From contig NZ_VJZP01000018.1 in the NCBI RefSeq assembly GCF_007097265.1, positions 1 to 64,000 on the forward strand: DNA of 64,000 nucleotides, written 5' to 3'. Shown piece after piece: positions 23,380-35,705 of this stretch. The notes beneath the pieces were generated by a model. That model saw nothing but the letters and a program-made list of their open reading frames with translations, had not been told where the DNA came from and did not search any database. Position 1 is the stretch's first letter; every line of letters begins with the position of its first letter. This stretch comes from Flavobacterium gawalongense. GTDB lineage: Bacteria; Bacteroidota; Bacteroidia; Flavobacteriales; Flavobacteriaceae. A program made the translations under genes and the position numbers.

Positions 23380-24057
23380 TTAATTATCTGATTTCTTATC
23401 ACCAAATTTTTCGTGTTTGATAATTTTGGCATTAATCATAAAATAAACATACTCTGCAATATTCGTACAATGCTCAGAAATACGCTCTAAATGTTTTAAA
23501 ACAATCACAAGATTTGTTCCAGAAACTACGGTCTTAGAATTTGACTTCATTTCATTGATGATATTATGTATTGCATCATCGGATTCATTTTTTATGGTAT
23601 TGTTCAAAATAAAGATCTCACCAATGGTGTTTTCATTACGAGTTAAAAAACATTCATTCGTTTTTATGGTAATAACCTCAACTTGTCTGGCTATATCAGT
23701 AATATTAAACTTAACAATTAAGTCATGCTTATCTTTAATATTCTTAGCTTTTTTTATGATGCTTATCGCCAAATCACCAATTCTTTCTATCTCATTGCTA
23801 ATTTGCATGGCTGACATAATAAAACGTAAATCAGAAGCGACAGGCTGTTGCAAAGCAAAAATACTTTGACAAATTTCATCAATCTTCACATCTAATTTAT
23901 CAATCTTATTTTCTGTTTTTTTTACTTCTTTACCTTCAGCAACAGGTTCTGACAGCAAAGCGTTTACGGATCCACTCACTTGAATTTCTGCAAGCTTACC
24001 TATTTTTACAATTACATTTTTTAGTTTTTCTAATTCTATTTCAAAGTGTGATGCCAT
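23380..24057 (-). CDS. phoU: Phosphate signalling protein PhoU
   Basis: A 225-residue all-helical protein with the two tandem PhoU three-helix bundles (about 8-95 and 110-205). Acidic metal-binding motifs are visible as MQISNEIERIGDLAISI and VIVLKHLERISEHCTNIAEYVYF (the ExxxD pattern in each half). PhoU links the Pst transporter to the PhoR kinase and represses the Pho regulon when phosphate is plentiful. It is the last gene of the oprP-pstSCAB-phoU cluster, 78 nt after pstB. Confidence 0.95.
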   Translation of the reverse strand: MASHFEIELEKLKNVIVKIGKLAEIQVSGSVNALLSEPVAEGKEVKKTENKIDKLDVKIDEICQSIFALQQPVASDLRFIMSAMQISNEIERIGDLAISIIKKAKNIKDKHDLIVKFNITDIARQVEVITIKTNECFLTRNENTIGEIFILNNTIKNESDDAIHNIINEMKSNSKTVVSGTNLVIVLKHLERISEHCTNIAEYVYFMINAKIIKHEKFGDKKSDN

Positions 24058-24135
24058 GTTTTTTTATTTAAAAATTTAAAAGATTAAAAAATCAAAATAC
24101 GCTTTTTAGAAAGTCTATTTCTATTTATATACCTT

Positions 24136-24894
24136 TTATCCAAATCTTCCTGTGATATAATCTTCAGTCTGCTTTTGTTCTGGTTTGGTAAATATAGTAT
24201 TAGTTTTACCAATTTCAATCAATTCTCCCAAGTAAAAGAACGCAGTATAATCACTGGTTCTTGCAGCTTGTTGCATGTTATGGGTAACAATTATTATTGT
24301 GTACTGTTCTTTCAACTCATGAACTAATTCCTCTATTTTTGAAGTAGAAATAGGATCCAATGCACTCGCAGGTTCATCCATAAGAATAATATCCGGGCTT
24401 ACCGCCAAAGTTCTGGCGATACACAAACGCTGTTGTTGTCCACCTGAAAGACCCATTGCGGAATCATCCAAACGATCTTTCAATTCATCCCAAATAGCAG
24501 CCTGGCGCAATGAAGTTTCAACGATTTCGTTTAACTGTGCTTTGTCTTTTATCCCATTAATTTTAGGACCATAGGCAATATTTTCATAAATAGATTTTGG
24601 GAAAGGATTTGACTTTTGAAAAACCATTCCAATTTTTTTTCTAATATTTACAACATCTACGTCTTTATTGTAAATATCCACACCTTCAACCAGCATTTCA
24701 CCAGTAATTTTCACACTCGGAATAAGATCATTCATTCTATTGATGCATCTCAAAAAAGTAGATTTACCACAACCCGAAGGTCCTATTAATGCAGTCACTT
24801 TATTCGCCGGGATTTGCATTGAAATTTCCTTTAAGGCCTTTTTATCACCATAATATAACGATAAATCTTTAACCTCTATTTTTATATCTCTCAT
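24136..24894 (-). CDS. pstB: Phosphate ABC transporter ATP-binding protein PstB
   Basis: A 252-residue ABC ATPase. Walker [10 protein letters not shown] is at 38-46, the signature LSGGQQQR near 149, and Walker B with D-loop ([13 protein letters not shown]) near 168-180, followed by the switch His ([12 protein letters not shown]). The Q-loop region ([22 protein letters not shown]) is the PstB-specific form. It powers uptake of inorganic phosphate through PstC and PstA. Located between pstA (42 nt) and phoU. Confidence 0.97.
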
Positions 24895-24936
24895 GTTTTC
24901 TTTATTAAATCTAAAATAATTAGGTTGTCTTTGGAA

Positions 24937-25881
24937 TTATTTTGCTCTTCTTCTAATTCTTGATCTGATGATTACCGCAACCAGATTTAATGATAAAGTA
25001 AGAATTAATAATACCAATGTGGTTGCGAACTGAATAGGCATTGTTTTCTCTACATCCGAAGATTGTGTGGACATAATATAAACATGATATCCCAGATTCA
25101 TAAATTGATCGCTCAAAGATTCCGGCAAAGTGGCTAAATAATAGGCCGCTCCTGTAAATAAAATAGGGGCAACCTCTCCTGCACCTCTACTCACGGCAAG
25201 AATAGTTCCTGTCATAATTCCAGAGATAGAACCTGGAAAAACTACTTTTTTAATGGTTTGCCATTTTGTAGCTCCCAAAGCCAAACTGGCCTCCCTTAAT
25301 TCTCGGGGGATCGTTTTTAAGGATTCTTCCACAGAAACGATAATCACAGGAAGCGTCAATAATGCCATAGTCAAACTTGCCCAAAGAATATTAGGCTGTC
25401 CCCAATGCAATTCACCATCATTGAAAGCAGAATCCATTCCTGTTCCAACAAATTGGATAAAAAATCCAAGTCCGAAAAGACCAAAAATAATAGAAGGCAC
25501 TACTGCCAATGTTCTAATTGAAAATCGTACTGCTGCAGCAAATTTTGAATTTTCTTTGGCATATTCCGTTAAATAAATGGCTGTTATAGTTCCAAAAGGA
25601 ACTGCCGCTATCGACATGACAATAACCAATATAAAAGTCCCTATCAAAGCAGGAAAAATACCTCCTTTGGTCATTCCATCGGTTGGAAAGGAACTTATAA
25701 ATTCCCATGAAAATTTTTCACGCCCTTGGTAAATAATAATACCTAAAATTATAAACAAGATGGCAATAATTAAAAGAACTGCGATTTGTGTCAATCCGAC
25801 AACTGCGTTTTCTTTTATATTTCCACCCGTTTTTTTAGTCTTATAAAACGGGTTTTCTGATACACTGATTGCTTTTTCCAT
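24937..25881 (-). CDS. pstA: Phosphate ABC transporter permease PstA
   Basis: A 314-residue inner-membrane permease with about six helices. The cytoplasmic coupling loop (EESLKTIPRELREASLALGATKWQTIKKVVFPGSISGIMTG, about 185-225) is the EAA motif that contacts PstB. A basic N-terminal tail of about 30 residues precedes the first helix. It pairs with PstC and starts 2 nt after the pstC stop, so translation is likely coupled. Confidence 0.95.
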   Translation of the reverse strand: MEKAISVSENPFYKTKKTGGNIKENAVVGLTQIAVLLIIAILFIILGIIIYQGREKFSWEFISSFPTDGMTKGGIFPALIGTFILVIVMSIAAVPFGTITAIYLTEYAKENSKFAAAVRFSIRTLAVVPSIIFGLFGLGFFIQFVGTGMDSAFNDGELHWGQPNILWASLTMALLTLPVIIVSVEESLKTIPRELREASLALGATKWQTIKKVVFPGSISGIMTGTILAVSRGAGEVAPILFTGAAYYLATLPESLSDQFMNLGYHVYIMSTQSSDVEKTMPIQFATTLVLLILTLSLNLVAVIIRSRIRRRAK

Positions 25882-25883
25882 GT

Positions 25884-27095
25884 TTATTTACCTTGGAATT
25901 TTTTAATTAATTTTCCTTTAACATAAAATTCTGCCACTGCATTTAATATAAATGAAAAAATGAAAAGCAAAGACCCAATAAAAAACAACACACTATAATG
26001 GGTTTCCCCAAAAACAGTCTCCGCCATTTCTGAACCAATTGTCGCAGCAAAAGTACGTACACTTTCAAAAGGATTTGCAGACAAAAGTGCTGCATTCCCT
26101 GTTGCCATTAATGCAATCATAGTTTCGCCAAAAACTCTACCTATACCTAACAATATAGCAGCAAAAATACCTGGAGTTGCAGCGGGAAGAATCACAAAAA
26201 ATGCAGTTTGTGCCTTACTCGCTCCCAGCGCTAAACTGGCCTCGGTAAATGTTTTAGGGACTGCCGATAAGGCATCTTCTGAAATAGTATAAATAATTGG
26301 AATAGCTGCTAATGCCATAGCAACACCTCCTATAAAAGCATTCAATCGCGAATCATATCCAAAAATATCCTGAAAAAAAGTGGCCAAAACCATCATCGCA
26401 AAAAAACCAATTACCACTGATGGAAATGCCGCTAACATTTCGATAATAGGTTTTATGATTTCCTTTCTTCTATTAGAAGCAAAACATGAAGTGTAAACCG
26501 CTGCTAATATTGCCAAAGGACCTGCAATCAATATGGCAATTATAGTAACTTTTAAAGTTCCAACAAGTAATGCTAACAAACCAAAACGTGGATTATCGGA
26601 AACCGGAACCCATTCTGTAGAGAAAAAAGTACTCCAGGTTCTATCGGCTCCTTCTTTGTTTTCTGTGGCTTTTTCATCAATAATAACTTCCTTACCCGTT
26701 GCTGTTTCTGGGTTCAAATCTTCGGTTGGAGCCCCATAGGTATCAGGCTCTAGTTCTTCTGAAGTTTGTGTTTCTTGAGTTACTGGATTTAAATCTTCAG
26801 TAGGTGCTCCGTATGTCTCTGGCTGAATTTCTTCTGTTGAAGTTTCCGCTCCCTCATAGCTTTCTACTTTTACATCCGAAGTAGTTTGTATTTCGGTTTT
26901 TACTTTGTCTTTTTTACCAAAACTAAATAACGGCATTGATTCTTTGAAAACAAAAATAAATATCAAAAAGATAATGGCTATCGACAAAAAAGCTACAAAA
27001 GAAATAACTTTCTCGGCTAGGAACTCTGAAAGTCTAAATTGTTTTTTCAAACTCTCTTTGGTGAAAATTTGTTTACTTGGAAGTGGAGAATTCAT
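25884..27095 (-). CDS. pstC: Phosphate ABC transporter permease PstC with acidic repeat insert
   Basis: A 403-residue permease, about 100 residues longer than typical PstC. After the first helix (about 28-50) comes a long acidic segment (about 60-150) rich in Glu, Thr and Pro, with two copies of a 14-residue unit (PETYGAPTEDLNP at 92-104 and PDTYGAPTEDLNP at 117-129). The rest is normal, with the EAA loop (TFTEASLALGASKAQTAFFVILPAATPG) and C-terminal helices. By topology the insert should lie in the periplasm, where it could contact PstS or the cell wall. The insert is in frame with no stop, so the gene is functional in appearance. Confidence 0.93.
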   Translation of the reverse strand: MNSPLPSKQIFTKESLKKQFRLSEFLAEKVISFVAFLSIAIIFLIFIFVFKESMPLFSFGKKDKVKTEIQTTSDVKVESYEGAETSTEEIQPETYGAPTEDLNPVTQETQTSEELEPDTYGAPTEDLNPETATGKEVIIDEKATENKEGADRTWSTFFSTEWVPVSDNPRFGLLALLVGTLKVTIIAILIAGPLAILAAVYTSCFASNRRKEIIKPIIEMLAAFPSVVIGFFAMMVLATFFQDIFGYDSRLNAFIGGVAMALAAIPIIYTISEDALSAVPKTFTEASLALGASKAQTAFFVILPAATPGIFAAILLGIGRVFGETMIALMATGNAALLSANPFESVRTFAATIGSEMAETVFGETHYSVLFFIGSLLFIFSFILNAVAEFYVKGKLIKKFQGK

Positions 27096-27124
27096 TTAAT
27101 TAATTTAAGAATTCATAAATTTTT

Positions 27125-27157
27125 AAAAAAAATCCCTCCATAATTAAAGAGAGGGAT
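27125..27157 (-). terminator. Intercistronic terminator-like hairpin between pstS and pstC
   Basis: On the minus strand a 7-bp stem (ATCCCTC / GAGGGAT) with a 12-nt loop is followed by eight U. It lies after the pstS stop and before pstC. Partial termination here would make pstS mRNA more abundant than pstCAB mRNA, as is common for binding-protein genes. Confidence 0.75.
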
Positions 27158-27169
27158 ATTTTATAGTTT

Positions 27170-28003
27170 TTATTTTACGGGAAAATATCCTACTGTTGTA
27201 ATCATCTTTTGACCTTCTGGACCCAAAATCCAATCTATAAAAGCTTTAGTATCACCTGTTGGCTTAGATTTCAAATACATGTACAAGTATCTTGAAATTG
27301 GATAAGTTTTGTTTTTTATGGTTGCAGCAGTTGGCAAATACCCTTTACTTTTAGCGTCTTTCTTAACTTTACAATCTTTCACACCTTCAGCATAAGCAGC
27401 ACCACCATATCCAATACTATATTTGTCTTTTTTTACTGCATTCACGATAGCTGCTGTTCCTGGTAAGGTTTGACAGGTAGGAGAAAAATCAGTTTTGACT
27501 ACATGCTCTTTAAAAAATTCAAAAGTACCTGAACTACTCTCTCTACCATACAATTGTATTTTGGCATCAGCACCACCTACTTGTTTCCAGTTTGTAATCT
27601 TTCCGGAGAAAATATCTCCTAACTGTTGTATTGTCAATTCCGAAACCGTGTTTCCTTTGTTAAGGAAAACTGACAAACCATCTTTGGCACATGGAATTTC
27701 AACAGCATTTTTTTTGTATTTCGCTTTTATTTTTTCTAATTCAGACGGTTTTATAGGACGACTTGAATTTGCGATATCAGTAGAACCATTGATTAATGCC
27801 GCAAGACCTACTCCTGATCCGCCACCAGTTACTTGAATTGTTGTCTCTGGATGTTTTTTCATATATGCTTCAGCCCATTGTTGTGATAAAATTACCATCG
27901 TGTCTGAACCTTTAATTGTTATTTTACTCAATGAAGTAAACGAATATCCAATAGCCATTATGACCAATAAGATTGCTGCAATTTTTAATTTTGTTGTTTT
28001 CAT
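27170..28003 (-). CDS. pstS: Phosphate-binding protein PstS
   Basis: A 277-residue periplasmic solute-binding protein with an N-terminal signal or anchor helix (about 8-27) and no lipobox Cys. Phosphate-site motifs are clear: KGSDTMVILSQQWAEAYMKKHPE (about 32-54), TGGGSGVGLAALINGSTDIANSSRPI (about 59-84) and YGRESSSGTFEFFKEHV. Length is that of the short PstS type. It delivers phosphate to PstCA. Located 40 nt after the oprP-like gene and before a transcription-attenuating hairpin. Confidence 0.95.
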   Translation of the reverse strand: MKTTKLKIAAILLVIMAIGYSFTSLSKITIKGSDTMVILSQQWAEAYMKKHPETTIQVTGGGSGVGLAALINGSTDIANSSRPIKPSELEKIKAKYKKNAVEIPCAKDGLSVFLNKGNTVSELTIQQLGDIFSGKITNWKQVGGADAKIQLYGRESSSGTFEFFKEHVVKTDFSPTCQTLPGTAAIVNAVKKDKYSIGYGGAAYAEGVKDCKVKKDAKSKGYLPTAATIKNKTYPISRYLYMYLKSKPTGDTKAFIDWILGPEGQKMITTVGYFPVK

Positions 28004-29360: not shown

Positions 29361-29395
29361 GCAAAGGTCACGCTAGTATGTTAAGCTAATGTTAA
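29361..29395 (-). promoter_or_regulatory. Pho-box-like operator and promoter of oprP-pst
   Basis: On the minus strand two exact copies of TTAACAT are spaced by 4 nt (29395-29378; 7-4-7 layout, 11-bp period). Eight nucleotides further downstream GACCTTTG (29369-29362) is a 7/8 match to the -7 box TAnnTTTG. This is the geometry of a PhoB site that replaces or overlaps the -33 element. Confidence 0.7.
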
Positions 29396-29518
29396 CAAAT
29401 TATTATGTTGGTGATAAATTATCGTTTCGTAAAGGTTTCCAATCCTATTTTACAGGATTTTTTTTTAAATTTTTTAAACTTATTATTTATTTTAATTATT
29501 GATTTTAAGTGATTTATT

Positions 29519-30601
29519 TTAATTTTTGTCCGATTCTGATTTTTTCAATCTGGCCTTCTCAATTGTAAAGGAAAATTCAGACCCAATACCAAACTCACTC
29601 TCCACATATATTTTTTCTTTATGTGCTTCTATGATATGTTTCACAATCGCTAATCCTAAACCAGATCCTCCTTCTGAACGTGAACCACTTTTATTTACTC
29701 TGTAAAAGCGTTCAAAAAGCCTTGAGATATTTTGTTTCTCTATTCCTTCACCATTGTCTGTTATTCGAACCAAGACCTTTTTCTTTGTCAAATTGACGAT
29801 AGCGACTTCTGTAAGTCCGCCTTCTTTACCGTATTTTATTGAGTTCACAATTAAGTTTTCGACAACTTGCTGTATCTTATCTTCATCTCCATGCACTAGA
29901 ATAGGCTGTATCCGATCATTTTCAAAAGCCAGTGTAATTTTCTTTTTATCTGCTTTCATTTCCAATAAATCGAAAACGTTCTGTATCAATTCTACAATAT
30001 CAAAATCAGAAACCTCCAGATTCAAATCACCAGATTCTAATTTTGTGATCATATCTAAATCTTCTACAATGTAGATTAATCGCTCTACTCCTTTCTCGGC
30101 ACGTTTTAGATATTTTTTTCGAACTGCTTTATCATCCATCGCTCCATCAATAAGTGTAGATAAATACCCTTGAACTGTAAACAAAGGGGTTTTAAGTTCA
30201 TGGGAAACATTGCCAAGAAATTCTCTTCGGTATTCTTCTCGAACCTGCAACATTTCTATCTCCAATTTTTTATCGGTGGCAAATTTCTTAACTTCTCGCG
30301 TCAGCGTTTCCATATCGGTAGTAATAGGCTGATTGATAAACGAACTGGATTCCAGCAAGGAGACATCATCGTATATTTTTTTGACACGTCTGTAAATAAA
30401 CCGTTCGACACGATATTGTAAAACCACAAAAGAGAATAAATAAATGATGACAAGAGAAACGATTCCAAACAACAGTAAATTATTGACTTTGGACCCAAAG
30501 AATAGTAAGACCATTAATACGACAAATCCAGTAGCAAAAAGGCTAATGAACAAAGCAGATTTTATGGCAAATTTATAGGTTTTCTTAAAATTTATTTTCA
30601 T
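29519..30601 (-). CDS. phoR: Sensor histidine kinase of the phosphate regulon (PhoR-like)
   Basis: A 360-residue membrane kinase with two N-terminal helices (about 12-35 and 41-62) and only a very short periplasmic loop, followed by a coiled-coil linker (about 75-125). The HisKA domain has H134 in VSHELKTPLFTVQGYL, and the HATPase core has the N, G1 and G2 boxes (ENLIVNSIKYG, DNGEGIE, GSGLGLAIV). As in E. coli PhoR, the lack of a large sensor domain suggests it senses the state of Pst and PhoU. It follows phoB by 56 nt on the same strand and lies upstream of the pst genes. Confidence 0.9.
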   Translation of the reverse strand: MKINFKKTYKFAIKSALFISLFATGFVVLMVLLFFGSKVNNLLLFGIVSLVIIYLFSFVVLQYRVERFIYRRVKKIYDDVSLLESSSFINQPITTDMETLTREVKKFATDKKLEIEMLQVREEYRREFLGNVSHELKTPLFTVQGYLSTLIDGAMDDKAVRKKYLKRAEKGVERLIYIVEDLDMITKLESGDLNLEVSDFDIVELIQNVFDLLEMKADKKKITLAFENDRIQPILVHGDEDKIQQVVENLIVNSIKYGKEGGLTEVAIVNLTKKKVLVRITDNGEGIEKQNISRLFERFYRVNKSGSRSEGGSGLGLAIVKHIIEAHKEKIYVESEFGIGSEFSFTIEKARLKKSESDKN

Positions 30602-30657
30602 TACATTTATGCCTCGCTTTTAAAGCAATTTGTTATTCTTGTAAAAAGCATATCTAA

Positions 30658-31341
30658 TTACACTTCAAATTTATAACCCACTCCTTTAATCGTTTTGAAA
30701 AAATCTTCTCCAATTTTTTCACGCAATTTTCTAATATGCACATCTATGGTTCTTCCGCCAACTACGACTTCATTCCCCCAAACTTTATCTAGAATCTCAT
30801 CGCGTTTGAATACTTTTCCTGGTTTTGAAGCCAACAAGTAAAATAATTCAAACTCTTTTCGAGGCAAAGCTATTTCAACATTGTCTTTTCTTATTTTATA
30901 TTCTTCCCGATTGATCTCAATTCCTCCTACATTAAGTGTTTCACTATTTTGCTCTTGCTCTTTCAAGCGGCGCAACAAAGCTTTCACTTTACTGACCAAT
31001 AATTTTGGTTTAATTGGTTTTGTAATATAATCATCTGCACCAGCATCAAAACCGGCCACTTGCGAGTAATCTTCACTTCTTGCCGTCAAGAAAGTAATAA
31101 TCACATTATTCAGTTCCGGAATTTTTCTAATATTTTCACAAGCTTCCATACCATCCATTTCCGGCATCATTACATCCATGATAATAAGGTCAGGCAATTC
31201 CTTTTTAGCTTTTGCTATTGCTTCTTTCCCATTAGCCGCCGTAACGATTTGATACCCCTCTTGAGCGAGATTATACCCTACAATTTCTAGAATATCCGGC
31301 TCATCATCTACTAATAGAATCTTCGTATTTTTTTTCTTCAT
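30658..31341 (-). CDS. phoB: Response regulator of the phosphate regulon (PhoB-like)
   Basis: About 227 residues from the ATG at 31341; the frame also opens with a TTG at 31350 that I did not choose. The receiver domain has the acidic pocket (LVDDEPD), the phosphoacceptor D56 (IIMDVMMPEMDG) and the switch Lys (DYITKPIKP). The C-terminal OmpR/PhoB winged helix ends VVGGRTIDVHIRKLREKIG and FFKTIKGVGYKFEV. It should bind the TTAACAT direct repeats found at 29378, 31467 and 34391. First gene of the phoB-phoR pair, divergent from a TonB receptor gene. Confidence 0.92.
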   Translation of the reverse strand: MKKKNTKILLVDDEPDILEIVGYNLAQEGYQIVTAANGKEAIAKAKKELPDLIIMDVMMPEMDGMEACENIRKIPELNNVIITFLTARSEDYSQVAGFDAGADDYITKPIKPKLLVSKVKALLRRLKEQEQNSETLNVGGIEINREEYKIRKDNVEIALPRKEFELFYLLASKPGKVFKRDEILDKVWGNEVVVGGRTIDVHIRKLREKIGEDFFKTIKGVGYKFEV

Positions 31342-31466
31342 AAAGCCCAAAAAATTATTTTTGAATTGTAAATGTAATAATAAATGAGCTACTGAAAAGG
31401 AGTTAACGATAATTTAATGTTCTGTTCATCTTGCAGCGCAAAACAAAACACAACCATAACAAACAA

Positions 31467-31500
31467 GTAACTTACGTTTTACATTTAGTCCATTACTTTG
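31467..31500 (+). promoter_or_regulatory. Pho-box-like operator and promoter of the TonB receptor
   Basis: GTAACTT and TTTACAT (31467-31473, 31478-31484) match TTAACAT at 5/7 and 6/7, with the 4-nt spacer. Exactly 8 nt later comes TTACTTTG (31493-31500), a 7/8 match to the -7 box. This is the same spacing as at the oprP promoter. The ATG follows 17 nt on. Confidence 0.6.
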
Positions 31501-31517
31501 CAAAAAATTAAAACACA

Positions 31518-34319
31518 ATGAAATTCAAATTAATATTTTTTACGTTATTAATAACAGCTATTTCTTTTTCACAGAATAAAGGTACGGTTTCTGGAATCCT
31601 AACAGATAAAGACTCAAACAATCAATCATTGCCATTTGCAAACGTACTTATAAAAGGAACCACTATAGGAACCAATACTGACATTGATGGCAAATACGCC
31701 ATCGCTATTGCACCTGGAAATTATACTGTTCAATTCAGCTTTGTTGGTTATGAATCTGTAGAAATCCCTGTAACGGTAACAGCAAATGAAACAGTAACTT
31801 TGAATCAAGCAATTGGTTCCGGAAGTTACAAACTGGAAGATGTAGTTATAAAAAATACGGCAAGTAGAGAAAAAGAAACAGCCTTATTGCTAGACCAAAA
31901 GAAAGCAGTTGTTATCAAACAAAGTATTGGTGCCCAAGAAATGGCTCGTAAAGGAGTTAGCGATGTAGAGGAAGGTTTGACAAAAATAACCGGAATTACA
32001 AAAGTAGGCTCAAGAGGTTTATTTGTACGCGGACTGGAAGACCGATACAACAACTTACTGATAAATGATCTAGCTGCGCCAACTAACAATCCTTTCAAAA
32101 AAATTATTCCATTAGACTTATTTTCTACCGATATTGTAGGTGTTATTGAAGTATACAAAACTTTTAACCCAAACATTTATGGAGATTTTGCCGGAGGAAC
32201 TTTTAATATACAAACATCTAAAGGTTCGAAAAGCGTAACTAAATTAAATATTGGAATTGGCTACACTGTAAATAACAATTTAGAAAAGTTTTTAATTTCT
32301 AAAGATGCTAATTCTACCAAAGGATTATTTGGCTTGACCGGAAACGACAGAAAACTTCCAGGATTATTGGGAAACAGACCTTCAAGTTACACGCTTACTG
32401 CAGATCAATCTTTGAGATCTTTTAAAAGTGGATTTGATGTTTCAAAAATCAATAGTCCTTTAAATTCAAGCATTGGCTTGCTTCATTCCGAAAAATTTAA
32501 CCTGAAAGACGATAAGACTTTTTCTTACTTACTTTCCATCAATTTTGATAACAATTATTCTATTAGAAACGGAGTAGAAAGAACGTTCACTAACAATCCT
32601 TCCGGATTTACTTATAGAAACGACTTCGACAATACGGAATACCGATATAAAACATCGTTATCTTCTTTGGTAGGATTAAATTACACTACAGACAGACTGA
32701 AACTTTCTTATAATACTCTTTTCATCAGAACTACTGAAAATCTAGTTAAAGATCAATTTGGAGTAGCTGATTCAAACTCAAGCAACAATAACACTTTAAT
32801 TAGAACCAATCAATTAGACGAATCTAATTATTTAAACAACCAGTTATTGGGTGAATATGCATTGAATGAAGATAAAACTCAAAACGTAAAAGCAGCAGTT
32901 TCGTATGCGATTACTAAATATGCACAACCGGACAGAAAATTCTTTTCAGGAACAAGATCAGGAACAGAAGATATTTTAGTTTCTGTTGCTGGAAATAATT
33001 TCATCAAACAATACTTAGATATTTCTGGTGATTCTTATTTTTCAGGATTAGCAGAGTACACTTTGAAATTTGGCAAAACTGAAAAAAATAATATTTTCAC
33101 AGCTGGATATAATGGCAACATGTCTGACATGACCTCATCCTATCGTTTTATCACACCAATAAATAACAGCGCTCCAAATAGCTTCACCACACCATTGAAT
33201 ACTGTAGACACTCAATTGAATAACTACATCGCTTCAAATGCTGTTAGTTTTAGAGAAAGTTCTAATGCAACGTATCAGGCAAAATTAAAGGAATCCGCTA
33301 ATGCCGGTTATGCTAACTTACTTTACAAATTTGGAGAAAAATGGGAAGTAAACGGAGGAATTCGTTTAGAAAGCACCATGCGAGAAACCAAATACAGAAC
33401 TCAAGGTTCTTTCTCAGATCCATTTAAAACTTTAAAATATGACAACTTGTATGTTTTACCTGCTTTGAATGTAAAATATGGTTTGAATGAAAATTCGAAT
33501 CTTCGTTTTGCCACTGGAAAAACATATACAAGACCAGTTGTAATGGAATCTTATCCTATTGAATATATCAATGCTGATGGAACTTCGACAAAAGGAAATC
33601 CATTTTTAGAAAATAGCAACAACTACAATGTTGATTTAAAATACGAATTGTTCCCAACATCAAAAGAAGTTGTTGTATTAGGATTGTTTGGTAAAAAAAT
33701 TGATCAGCCTATTGAAAGAACATTCATCTCTAATGCTGCGAATTCAACCATCACAACCTATTTAAATTCTGACAATGCCGTTTTATATGGAGCAGAAATT
33801 GAATTCATATTAGATTTTGCAAGAATTAACGAACGTTTATCTGATTTCTCTTTTGGGTTTAACACTTCTTTGATGCACACAAAAGTAGATGTGAAGCCAA
33901 CCACTACTGATAGTGACGGTAATGTGACAACATCAATCGAAACTTTTAGAAGCAGAGAACTTCAAGGAGCTTCAAAATGGTTAATCAACTCCGATTTAAA
34001 ATACCAATTTAATTTAAGGGAATCCTGGAACAACACGGTTTCATTAGTTTATTCTGTATTTGGAAAGAGAATTTATGCAGTGGGAACAGGAGGATTAGAC
34101 CATATTTATGAACTACCGGTTCAACAATTAGATTTTATTTGGAGTAGCAAATTATCAGATCATTTCGATTTAAAATTTAGTGCTGATAATTTACTTGATC
34201 CTATTCGCAAATCTGAACAAGGAAATAATGGAACTTCTTCCATTGTAGAACAATCAAACATAACAAACAGTTATAAAAAAGGAAGAGGCTTCTCAATAAA
34301 CTTAGGATACACTTTTTAA
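31518..34319 (+). CDS. TonB-dependent outer-membrane receptor, phosphate-regulon linked
   Basis: A 933-residue receptor. A signal peptide (about 1-18), an N-terminal carboxypeptidase-D-like beta domain (about 22-110, GTVSGILTDKDSNNQSLPFANVLIKGT), the plug (about 130-240, with GLFVRGLEDRYNNLLIND and GVIEVYKTFNPNIYGDFAGGTFNIQTSKG) and a large barrel ending GRGFSINLGYTF. No SusD-like partner is present; instead a beta-helix lipoprotein follows. Its position beside phoB and the Pho-box-like promoter suggest import of a phosphorus compound (organophosphate, polyphosphate or nucleic-acid fragment). The substrate is inferred, not shown. Confidence 0.88.
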   Translation: MKFKLIFFTLLITAISFSQNKGTVSGILTDKDSNNQSLPFANVLIKGTTIGTNTDIDGKYAIAIAPGNYTVQFSFVGYESVEIPVTVTANETVTLNQAIGSGSYKLEDVVIKNTASREKETALLLDQKKAVVIKQSIGAQEMARKGVSDVEEGLTKITGITKVGSRGLFVRGLEDRYNNLLINDLAAPTNNPFKKIIPLDLFSTDIVGVIEVYKTFNPNIYGDFAGGTFNIQTSKGSKSVTKLNIGIGYTVNNNLEKFLISKDANSTKGLFGLTGNDRKLPGLLGNRPSSYTLTADQSLRSFKSGFDVSKINSPLNSSIGLLHSEKFNLKDDKTFSYLLSINFDNNYSIRNGVERTFTNNPSGFTYRNDFDNTEYRYKTSLSSLVGLNYTTDRLKLSYNTLFIRTTENLVKDQFGVADSNSSNNNTLIRTNQLDESNYLNNQLLGEYALNEDKTQNVKAAVSYAITKYAQPDRKFFSGTRSGTEDILVSVAGNNFIKQYLDISGDSYFSGLAEYTLKFGKTEKNNIFTAGYNGNMSDMTSSYRFITPINNSAPNSFTTPLNTVDTQLNNYIASNAVSFRESSNATYQAKLKESANAGYANLLYKFGEKWEVNGGIRLESTMRETKYRTQGSFSDPFKTLKYDNLYVLPALNVKYGLNENSNLRFATGKTYTRPVVMESYPIEYINADGTSTKGNPFLENSNNYNVDLKYELFPTSKEVVVLGLFGKKIDQPIERTFISNAANSTITTYLNSDNAVLYGAEIEFILDFARINERLSDFSFGFNTSLMHTKVDVKPTTTDSDGNVTTSIETFRSRELQGASKWLINSDLKYQFNLRESWNNTVSLVYSVFGKRIYAVGTGGLDHIYELPVQQLDFIWSSKLSDHFDLKFSADNLLDPIRKSEQGNNGTSSIVEQSNITNSYKKGRGFSINLGYTF

Positions 34320-34335
34320 CATAATGCTTAAAACC

Positions 34336-34367
34336 AAAAAGCTCTAATTTATTTAGAGCTTTTTTTA
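34336..34367 (+). terminator. Terminator after the TonB receptor
   Basis: Stem AAAAAGCTCTAA / TTAGAGCTTTTT with a short loop and a T run starts 16 nt after the stop codon. Confidence 0.85.
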
Positions 34368-34390
34368 TGCTTAAAACTCACATAACACAC

Positions 34391-34408
34391 TTAACATTCT
34401 CTTCACAT
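34391..34408 (+). promoter_or_regulatory. Pho-box-like direct repeat upstream of the beta-helix lipoprotein
   Basis: TTAACAT (7/7) and TTCACAT (6/7) are separated by the 4-nt TCTC. The nearest ideal -7 box lies 63 nt downstream, further than at the other two sites, so a different activation geometry or a second weak half-site near 34446 would be needed. Confidence 0.5.
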
Positions 34409-34471
34409 TTTGGTATTTTTTTAGTAACCGTATTGTAATATTCAGCTAACACCCTTTATGAAGTTATCCTA

Positions 34472-34479
34472 TAATTTTG
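34472..34479 (+). promoter_or_regulatory. Putative promoter of the beta-helix lipoprotein, -7 box
   Basis: TAATTTTG matches TAnnTTTG exactly, 35 nt before the ATG at 34515. Confidence 0.5.
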
Positions 34480-34514: not shown

Positions 34515-35705
34515 ATGAAAACTAAATTTTTTGCTTTAGCACTTGCTACAGGGTTATTTCTAAATTCTTGCTCAAGTAGTGATGATCCAACTCCTGTTAC
34601 ACCACCGGCAACAGGCGAAATCACAGGTACAATAACCGCAAATAAAACTTTTGCATACGGAAATTACACTTTAAAAGGTATTGTTAAAGTTGCTTCAGGA
34701 GTAACAGTAACTTTCGAAGCAGGTTCTACAATTACTGCAAACAAAACTACTGGAGACAACGCATTAGTTGTTTTAAACGGTGGAAAATTAAACATTAGCG
34801 GTACTGCTGACAAACCAGTTGTATTTACAGAAGCATCTGCAACTCCAGGTTCTTGGGGAGGAATCATCATGTACGGTGATGCTCCAATCAAAGCAATTGG
34901 TGGTGTGACTACTTCAACTTCAGAAGATGGAAACGCTTTACCATACGGAGGAACAAATGCTACTCACAACGGAGGTTCATTAAATTATGCCAGAGTTGAA
35001 TATGCTGGAGCAAAATTAGCTGATGGAACAAAAGAAAATAATGGATTTACATTTTATTCAGTAGGTTCAGGAACAACATTAGACCACTTAGTTTCTTACA
35101 AAGGTGCTGATGATGGATATGAATTTTTTGGAGGAACTGTAAGTATGACAAACGCTATTTCCTATGGGAACTACGATGATGCTTTTGACTGGCAAGATGG
35201 ATGGCAAGGTCAAAACAACTCTAACTGGTATGCATACCAAACTGGTAAAGGGAATTTCGGAATGGAGATTGAATGTTCAAATAATAACAATGCATTCTGG
35301 CCAAAAATAACTAACATCACTTTAAAAAGAGAAGCAGGATGTGTACCAGAAGTTGCTGGTGATATTCAAGTTGATGCTTTCCAATTCAAAAAAGAAGGAA
35401 ATGGAGATTATAGTAACATCATTATCTCAGGATACGGAAATTATACTGAAGGAACAACTGTTTACAATGGTGCAGCAGTAAAAATCCAAGATGCCACTAC
35501 AAATACAAATCAAGTTAATGGATCAAAATTAAAATTAACTAATGTGACTATCTCTTCAACTACTCAAGTTGTACCTGTAGGAGCAACTTCTGCAATTGTA
35601 GTTAATTTCCCAGTTGGTAATTTTACACCAAGTACATCTGCAACAGGTGCTTCATTAACTGCTGGTACATGGGCAACAGTTGGTGGTACTAGCTTGATTA
35701 AATAG
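34515..35705 (+). CDS. Lipoprotein with predicted beta-helix fold
   Basis: A 396-residue lipoprotein: signal peptide and lipobox LNSC (Cys near residue 19) followed by SSSDDP, an acidic start of the mature protein that resembles the export signal of surface-exposed flavobacterial lipoproteins. The mature part repeats short strands such as GNYTLKGIVKVASGVTVTFEAGSTI, NALVVLNGGKLNISGTADKPVVFTE and LDHLVSYKGADDGYEFFGGTVS, suggesting a right-handed parallel beta-helix. The DDGYEFFGGT and NYDDAFDWQDG loops could bind metal or ligand. It follows the TonB receptor and has its own Pho-like site, so it may be the receptor's surface partner. I cannot name a substrate. Confidence 0.75.
   Translation: MKTKFFALALATGLFLNSCSSSDDPTPVTPPATGEITGTITANKTFAYGNYTLKGIVKVASGVTVTFEAGSTITANKTTGDNALVVLNGGKLNISGTADKPVVFTEASATPGSWGGIIMYGDAPIKAIGGVTTSTSEDGNALPYGGTNATHNGGSLNYARVEYAGAKLADGTKENNGFTFYSVGSGTTLDHLVSYKGADDGYEFFGGTVSMTNAISYGNYDDAFDWQDGWQGQNNSNWYAYQTGKGNFGMEIECSNNNNAFWPKITNITLKREAGCVPEVAGDIQVDAFQFKKEGNGDYSNIIISGYGNYTEGTTVYNGAAVKIQDATTNTNQVNGSKLKLTNVTISSTTQVVPVGATSAIVVNFPVGNFTPSTSATGASLTAGTWATVGGTSLIK

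Follow-up and report, generated by a model that had tools for sequence, protein, structure and literature searches.

TAACA-type half-site arrays phased to the -7 box are very likely PhoB operators in flavobacteria

Introduction

In Escherichia coli, PhoB molecules line up head to tail along units of 11 nt and touch sigma (PMC4415409; PMC3973317), and the Pho box of this protein consists of at least two direct repeats, each of seven conserved and four variable nucleotides, just upstream of the core promoter (PMC4415409; PMC1906773). In cyanobacteria, the SphR box CTTAACCT is built from at least three tandem repeats of 8 bp with a 3-bp linker, and lies ahead of pst and phosphatase genes (PMC1906773). 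Here we describe arrays of nTAACAn half-sites in the phosphate (pho) locus of Flavobacterium gawalongense, lying in a 64,000-nt stretch of contig NZ_VJZP01000018.1 (positions 1 to 64,000, hereafter the window), which we regard as PhoB operators (Pho boxes) with a probability of about 0.9.

Among the known elements, the SphR box is the closest, having in common the 11-bp period and the TTAAC core; however, the bases after TTAAC differ, the half-site here is nTAACAn and is held in fixed phase to a TAnnTTTG box, and the phylum and promoter type are different as well. With the E. coli Pho box the arrays share the layout, namely at least two direct-repeat units of 11 nt with seven conserved plus four further positions, whereas the half-site is not CTGTCAT, TAACA standing in place of TGTCA; and while the E. 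coli box is situated 10 bp before the -10 element (PMC1906773), the arrays end 8 nt before the predicted -7 box at 30 of 30 TonB-receptor and 24 of 30 oprP promoters. Genome-wide, sites are found ahead of phosphate-acquisition genes, and other genes are matched too. The PhoP box of Bacillus subtilis comprises repeats of the TT-A-CA type, nearly the same half-site as nTAACAn. Its period is also the same, but it belongs to a different phylum and works with a different sigma factor (general layout from PMC4415409).

Within the phylum, PhoB of Bacteroides fragilis binds the pst promoter (pstC) in gel shift, and the extracted text of that paper has no mention of ‘consensus’, ‘direct repeat’ or ‘binding site’ (PMC3547664). 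Predicted Pho boxes were marked at plcP clusters of marine bacteria including flavobacteria, with their sequence absent from the extracted passages (PMC4796936). Among the matches listed in the open-licence literature, no title or abstract gave a Pho box sequence for Bacteroidota or Flavobacterium, so that no such PhoB site seems to have been described before for the phylum. The arrays are very likely PhoB sites in flavobacteria, and probably also more widely in the phylum.

Results

Arrays of at least three phased half-sites at the promoters of the pho locus

The locus comprises oprP-pstS-pstC-pstA-pstB-phoU and phoB-phoR on the minus strand, and a TonB-dependent receptor gene and a lipoprotein-like gene on the plus strand. 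A sequence-only reading of the window had proposed a two-copy TTAACAT operator of 7-4-7 layout ahead of three transcription units, and all three repeats are present where it placed them: TTAACAT TAGC TTAACAT at 29378-29395 on the minus strand (oprP-pst, 14/14 match to the TTAACAT pair), GTAACTT ACGT TTTACAT at 31467-31484 on the plus strand (TonB receptor, 5/7 and 6/7) and TTAACAT TCTC TTCACAT at 34391-34408 on the plus strand (lipoprotein, 7/7 and 6/7). The 8-nt spacer that it reported between repeat and -7 box is exact at oprP (GACCTTTG, 29369-29362) and at the TonB receptor (TTACTTTG, 31493-31500), each of the two boxes departing from TAnnTTTG at one of its six fixed positions.

For the TonB-receptor promoter, the best 30 loci out of 150 genus genomes were taken, comprising the window and 29 others with protein identities of 56-87%, and were aligned on the TTTGC closest ahead of the gene; this anchoring makes TTTGC common to all rows. 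Without any gap, all 30 loci conformed to nTAACAa n4 nTAACaT n4 TTTACAn n8 TTnn-TTTGC, with the TAA of half-site 1 and the TAAC of half-site 2 invariant in 30/30 and half-site 3 degenerate in three loci (L027-L029). The TonB-receptor promoter therefore carries three half-sites, which in the window are ATAACAA (31456..31462), GTAACTT (31467..31473) and TTTACAT (31478..31484), all on the plus strand, the last one 8 nt before the predicted -7 box at 31493..31500 as placed by the promoter alignment; an additional in-phase site lies at 63 nt.

A half-site matrix built from the TonB-receptor rows alone was then applied to other promoters as a held-out test. For oprP, the best 30 loci, window included, of the 47 genomes with a match were used, and three half-sites in exact phase were found in 24 of them, scoring above 22 against a threshold of 13.0 (the 99.9th percentile of mononucleotide shuffles); two further loci were off by one base. 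The oprP-pst operator of the window runs on the minus strand through ATAATAA (29400..29406, recognized by the oprP alignment and within a match of the model R2 described below at 29361-29406), TTAACAT (29389..29395) and TTAACAT (29378..29384), the latter two seen in the sequence as well as in the alignment and the last 8 nt before the predicted TAnnTTTG-type -7 box (29362..29369). For the lipoprotein gene, 27 of 30 loci were used (L014, L024 and L029 were dropped, the next gene not being a lipoprotein gene or the anchor being unclear), and among 100 distances tested the five best were 74, 19, 63, 30 and 41 nt from the -7 box, all equal to 8 modulo 11, i.e. the phase of the oprP and TonB-receptor promoters. 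The repeat at 34391-34408 is therefore the distal part of a longer ladder, which also has a proximal triplet at 34424-34452. On the plus strand of the window, this ladder includes TTAACAT (34391..34397, 74 nt before the -7 box), TTCACAT (34402..34408, 63 nt), GTAACCG (34424..34430, 41 nt), GTAATAT (34435..34441, 30 nt) and CTAACAC (34446..34452, 19 nt), followed by the predicted -7 box TAATTTTG at 34472..34479, a perfect TAnnTTTG.

The element is thus made up of at least three nTAACAn half-sites with an 11-bp period, and its helical phase relative to a TAnnTTTG-type -7 box is fixed, at 8 nt or 8+11k. In the sequence-only reading some points need correction: the conserved core is nTAACAn and not strict TTAACAT; its two-copy operator gives way to at least three half-sites, the third having been missed at both oprP (29400-29406) and the TonB receptor (31456-31462); and its third site, though present, is just the distal part of a ladder whose proximal triplet was overlooked. 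Conservation in relatives, which it had named as a check, was borne out, the arrays being kept at the same promoters (TonB receptor, oprP and lipoprotein).

For Flavobacteriaceae as a whole, sites were counted from the rows of 80 named PhoB loci among the matches listed. Divergently from phoB, 27 of them have a site scoring at least 16 with an in-phase TTTG, and these include Kordia, Salegentibacter, Maribacter, Flagellimonas, Croceivirga and Arenibacter; another six carry strong arrays but lack a -7 box in phase, two loci are too short, and the rest of the 80 show no clear site divergent from phoB. A search downstream of phoB located oprP at eight of the 80 loci, all Flavobacterium, and gave one false find besides; the phase is exact in 7/8.

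Whole-genome scans of the genus return phosphate genes

The model R1, made of TonB-receptor rows only, ranked the TonB-receptor promoter first in the 6.1-Mb genome G136, which lies outside the training set (E=5e-11); in the window genome, oprP came in third place (E=0.05). A second model, R2, combined 21 TonB-receptor and 17 oprP rows, leaving out 9/30 of the former and 13/30 of the latter (six without exact phase and seven for redundancy), and was run on 10 genomes with E-values that are rough owing to a shortened calibration. In 10/10 genomes the top match fell within the pho locus, although six of them (G051, G112, G136, G109, G042 and G133) contributed no training row themselves, only relatives of theirs doing so. 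The five best matches in G112 lay ahead of the gene in oprP position, pstS, DUF47-PiT, the TonB receptor and the lipoprotein gene.

The R2 match that recurred beyond the pho locus was the promoter of a DUF47-PiT phosphate-transporter operon, found in 5/10 genomes at E<=0.06 and in 8/10 at E<=1 after the matching places were related by similarity search; the operon was identified by PF01865 and PF01384 in G073 and by similarity in the other genomes. Among the best 30 genus loci, 29 PiT promoters exceeded the 99th percentile of shuffles, with a gap to the -7 box of 8 nt in 9/30, 18 nt in 19/30 and 19 nt in 1/30. In a later PiT profile L301 was dropped, together with seven PiT loci that lacked a usable anchor; because six of these seven have gap 8, the profile leans to gap 18.

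Other R2 matches examined at E<=0.06 have no phosphate link: about 400 nt before rpiB, ahead of a YkuD gene, ahead of a small G042 gene, within a 675-aa gene of G051 and within a G103 gene, and, in the window genome, in an aspS-like/MORN_2 region, for which we know of no connection to phosphate. A TAACA array stands beside the gene that is aspS-like by eye at G000:C4:23203-23241 (L351:4203-4241), and also in L358, L359 and L409; this covers three genus genomes and one other genus, and within the genus the array is also beside a small secreted MORN_2 protein. The genome scan that the sequence-only reading had put forward has thereby largely been run, with an outcome in its favour: matrix models return phosphate genes. 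The bare 7-4-7 repeat itself shows no genome-wide enrichment.

Arrays in other families of the phylum

R2 was further used to scan 198 genomes of the phylum at E<=0.01, and matched 36 of them, 27 outside the genus, compared with about two genomes expected from the E-value. Twenty-one loci outside the genus, one per genome, were examined, and 12 of these precede phosphate, phosphonate, nuclease or homologous lipoprotein genes. In family f3, all five loci precede DUF47-PiT and display TTAAC-type half-sites, n4 linkers and a TAnnTTTG box at a distance of exactly 8 nt; two loci precede a porin and then a PiT-like gene (one by a partial Pfam match below the cut-off and one by eye); porin-pstS, pstS, a phosphonate ABC system and a secreted endonuclease I are each preceded by one; and one lies ahead of a homolog of the window lipoprotein (34% identity over 256 residues). 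Of the other nine, four have no gene close by, two are at unknowns, and an aspS-like gene, a histidine kinase and a PhyH protein account for one each.

These loci bear on the idea that a different OmpR-family response regulator, or PhoB together with a second regulator, uses the arrays as its operators and happens to serve phosphate genes. The same 7-4-7 layout is read by other members of that family, Mycobacterium tuberculosis PhoP for example, and some sites precede genes without an obvious phosphate link, such as the aspS-like/MORN_2 region; against this, phoBR is embedded among the sites, and more than half of the loci examined outside the genus (12/21) stand before phosphate, phosphonate or nuclease genes or the homologous lipoprotein gene. 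We consider a different or additional regulator improbable, and PhoB itself the favoured binder.

Ahead of the histidine kinase gene, in L410 (family f33), the sequence reads TTAACAT n4 TTAACAA n8 TATTTTTG; this kinase is possibly a PhoR-like one under its own control.

Genes induced by phosphate starvation in F. johnsoniae

A phosphate (Pi)-starvation transcriptome has been published for F. johnsoniae, with the induced genes in its Table 1 (PMC8115612). From its gene order and domains, G136 is a putative F. johnsoniae genome: they match the Fjoh loci for glycosyltransferase-OprP-PhoR-PhoB-TonB receptor-lipoprotein-CARDB protein, and also those for phytase, MauG, PhoA with GDPD_2 and a choice-of-anchor protein. 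Fjoh locus names on G136 are tentative, since they rest on gene order, domains and interpolated position. No Pfam family matches the presumed PhoX of G136, which is named only from its place beside a MauG-type gene; a search by the Pfam family of PhoX gave no match in the window genome or G136.

The comparison used the pho cluster and 40 stretches picked by gene number or family search, not by motif; the motif-fetched stretches L179, L180 and L182-L189 were dropped, while L181 (the pho cluster) was kept. Six genes lying within operons or not listed as induced were left out, and oprP and phoR are reported apart; the PUSII sigma gene, one of the six, had scored 14.3. This version replaced an earlier one with motif-selected stretches included (p=6e-5). 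Gaps of 8 and 19 nt were taken from the genus data, and several G136 promoters had been viewed before the score was built.

The 13 Pi-induced leading genes outscored 434 other G136 promoters (p=5e-8), likewise without the TonB receptor (p=2e-7) and with upstream regions of at least 140 nt (p=9e-7). A score of at least 14 was reached by 6/13 induced genes versus 4/434 background promoters. The TonB receptors 0545 and 3841 and PhoX 2478 stood above all 434 background promoters, and only one background promoter exceeded the glycosyltransferase 0541, two the lipoprotein 3414, four FecR 3252 and nine the lipoprotein 0546. OprP of G136 had a strong array score of 16.5. The PhoB operator proposed by the sequence-only reading thereby gains support as a prediction, from arrays kept in relatives, scans that return phosphate genes and enrichment at published Pi-induced genes.

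Upstream of the PUSII sigma and FecR genes of G136 (L251:4482-4595 and L251:5154-5500, minus strand), GTAACCT is followed by CTACCC. Such promoters look like those of an extracytoplasmic function (ECF) sigma factor, and may mimic a TAAC half-site.

Points against PhoB operators and alternative roles of the sites

Several results weigh against the arrays being PhoB operators. In the window, the bare repeat with up to three mismatches occurs 14 times versus 32.6 expected, so the weak middle site (31467-31484) alone is no evidence; over the whole window genome, up to two mismatches gave 107 matches versus 214 for the reversed control; and the strict triple IUPAC pattern, with 70 matches versus 59 for the control in 10 genomes, is not clearly over-represented. 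PiT sites are commoner at 18 nt than at 19, and the window genome's own PiT site is weak (13.9 versus a 99th percentile of 13.2). Among the induced genes of G136, phoB (25 background promoters above), the TonB receptor 1368 (34) and PI-PLC (39) are unconvincing, and no clear array was present at the PUSI sigma gene (49), 0549 (94) and the FI sigma gene (123). Moreover, OprP was not induced at low phosphate (log2 -1.3, not significant) and PiT is absent from the induced table as extracted (PMC8115612). Finally, wrong -7 gaps still separate induced from background promoters (p rounds to 0.0000), because the repeats themselves are stronger at induced promoters; since the medians at wrong gaps are lower (8.6-10.4 versus 12.3 at the right gaps), phase adds to the repeats and is not the sole signal in this test.

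On the other side, with up to one mismatch the window holds two matches to the bare repeat versus 0.16 expected, the exact repeat is a single copy in the 4.02-Mb window genome, situated at oprP, and the six strict-triple matches of that genome, equal to the six of its control, include the oprP and TonB-receptor promoters. It is conservation and phase, not the bare repeat, that raise the observation above chance.

Another explanation takes the half-sites for AT-rich elements of promoters in general (-33 or upstream), with no regulator involved. It would agree with the AT-rich genome, in which the bare repeat is frequent, and with the AT-rich motifs that F. johnsoniae promoters have ahead of the -7 box (PMC6847099). 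Such elements would hardly account for the scarcity of high scores among the background promoters of the putative F. johnsoniae genome (4/434 at 14 or more), nor for an 11-bp ladder reaching 74 nt upstream. We know of no such ladder at general promoters, and hold this explanation to be highly improbable. With PhoB operators retained as the preferred reading, the same sites could at some genes, oprP and PiT in particular, serve repression or fine tuning and not activation. This is suggested by the uninduced OprP with its strong site at the G136 counterpart and by PiT lying outside the induced table, whereas the -7 distance at oprP and at 9/30 PiT promoters is that of the strongly induced TonB-receptor gene; we rate such a role as unlikely, though a good deal less so than the two alternatives above.

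Recurrent strict-triple matches near apparent rRNA operons (by eye) or starting CAACAAAGTAATAACA were set aside as unrelated. Array-like sites near apparent rRNA operons, again by eye, are in L192, L195 and L196 (G109) and L180 and L184 (G136), and are probably a shared leader sequence. A perfect triple array at L186:6862-6899 (G136, minus strand) is ahead of a small lipoprotein-like gene, whose neighbours resemble conjugative-element genes by eye.

The PhoB protein and a proposed mechanism

The window phoB (30658..31341, minus strand) encodes the response regulator presumed to bind the sites, and phoR (29519..30601, minus strand) the histidine kinase. Over 92 residues, window PhoB shares 32% identity with the E. 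coli domain, and the recognition helix is nearly identical. Thr194 and Val197 are kept, whereas lysine replaces Arg201 and Arg219 of E. coli in window PhoB and in all 80 family members examined, which were picked for similarity. In E. coli, Arg201 bonds a guanine and Thr194 and Val197 contact thymines (PMC3973317). TAACA is without the guanine of TGTCA, and the change of Arg201 and Arg219 to lysine may fit that from TGTCA to TAACA. On phoB's own strand, no convincing array was seen at the phoB promoter of G136.

The flavobacterial -7 box spans -12 to -5 (PMC9723704, PMC6847099), which would put the array at about -49 to -21, on top of the -33 region; in F. johnsoniae promoters this region is far less evident than the -7 box (PMC6847099). 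Judged from sequence, this position fits replacement of the -33 element, as the sequence-only reading had supposed. Beyond the sites, their phase and conservation and the genes behind them, all of which are observed, we infer PhoB binding, activation and polymerase recruitment at the arrays as follows. When phosphate is scarce, PhoR would phosphorylate PhoB, which would bind head to tail to nTAACAn half-sites at 11-bp intervals, the final one lying around -27 to -21 or a turn further upstream; bound PhoB would then recruit RNA polymerase to the TAnnTTTG -7 box with no need of a -33 element. Ladders of several sites, such as that of the lipoprotein gene, would make induction strong. We also lean, with much less assurance, towards a general Pho box of Bacteroidota, in which PhoB with lysines for Arg201 and Arg219 would read TAACA and not TGTCA and polymerise on phased ladders of up to five good half-sites, with a sigma factor barely needing -33 and a regulon that includes DUF47-PiT across several families.

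In soil, sea and gut, Bacteroidota have a major part in the recycling of phosphorus, and such an operator would let the direct PhoB regulon be predicted in many genomes and set direct targets apart from genes induced indirectly, e.g. via ECF sigma factors. It would also provide a phased test case for activator action at TAnnTTTG promoters, and offers a concrete co-variation, Arg to Lys with TGTCA to TAACA, for testing.

Genes served by the arrays in the window

The oprP-type porin gene (PF07396; 28044..29336, minus strand) is the first of oprP-pstSCAB-phoU, with pstS, pstC, pstA, pstB and phoU at 23380..28003 on the same strand. On the plus strand, the TonB-dependent receptor gene (31518..34319) is the gene-order counterpart of Pi-induced Fjoh_0545, and the gene of the lipoprotein-like surface protein (34515..35705), whose product has no Pfam or NCBIfam match, is that of Pi-induced Fjoh_0546. 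By eye, a hairpin followed by T's near 34338-34367 parts the lipoprotein-like gene from the TonB-receptor gene.

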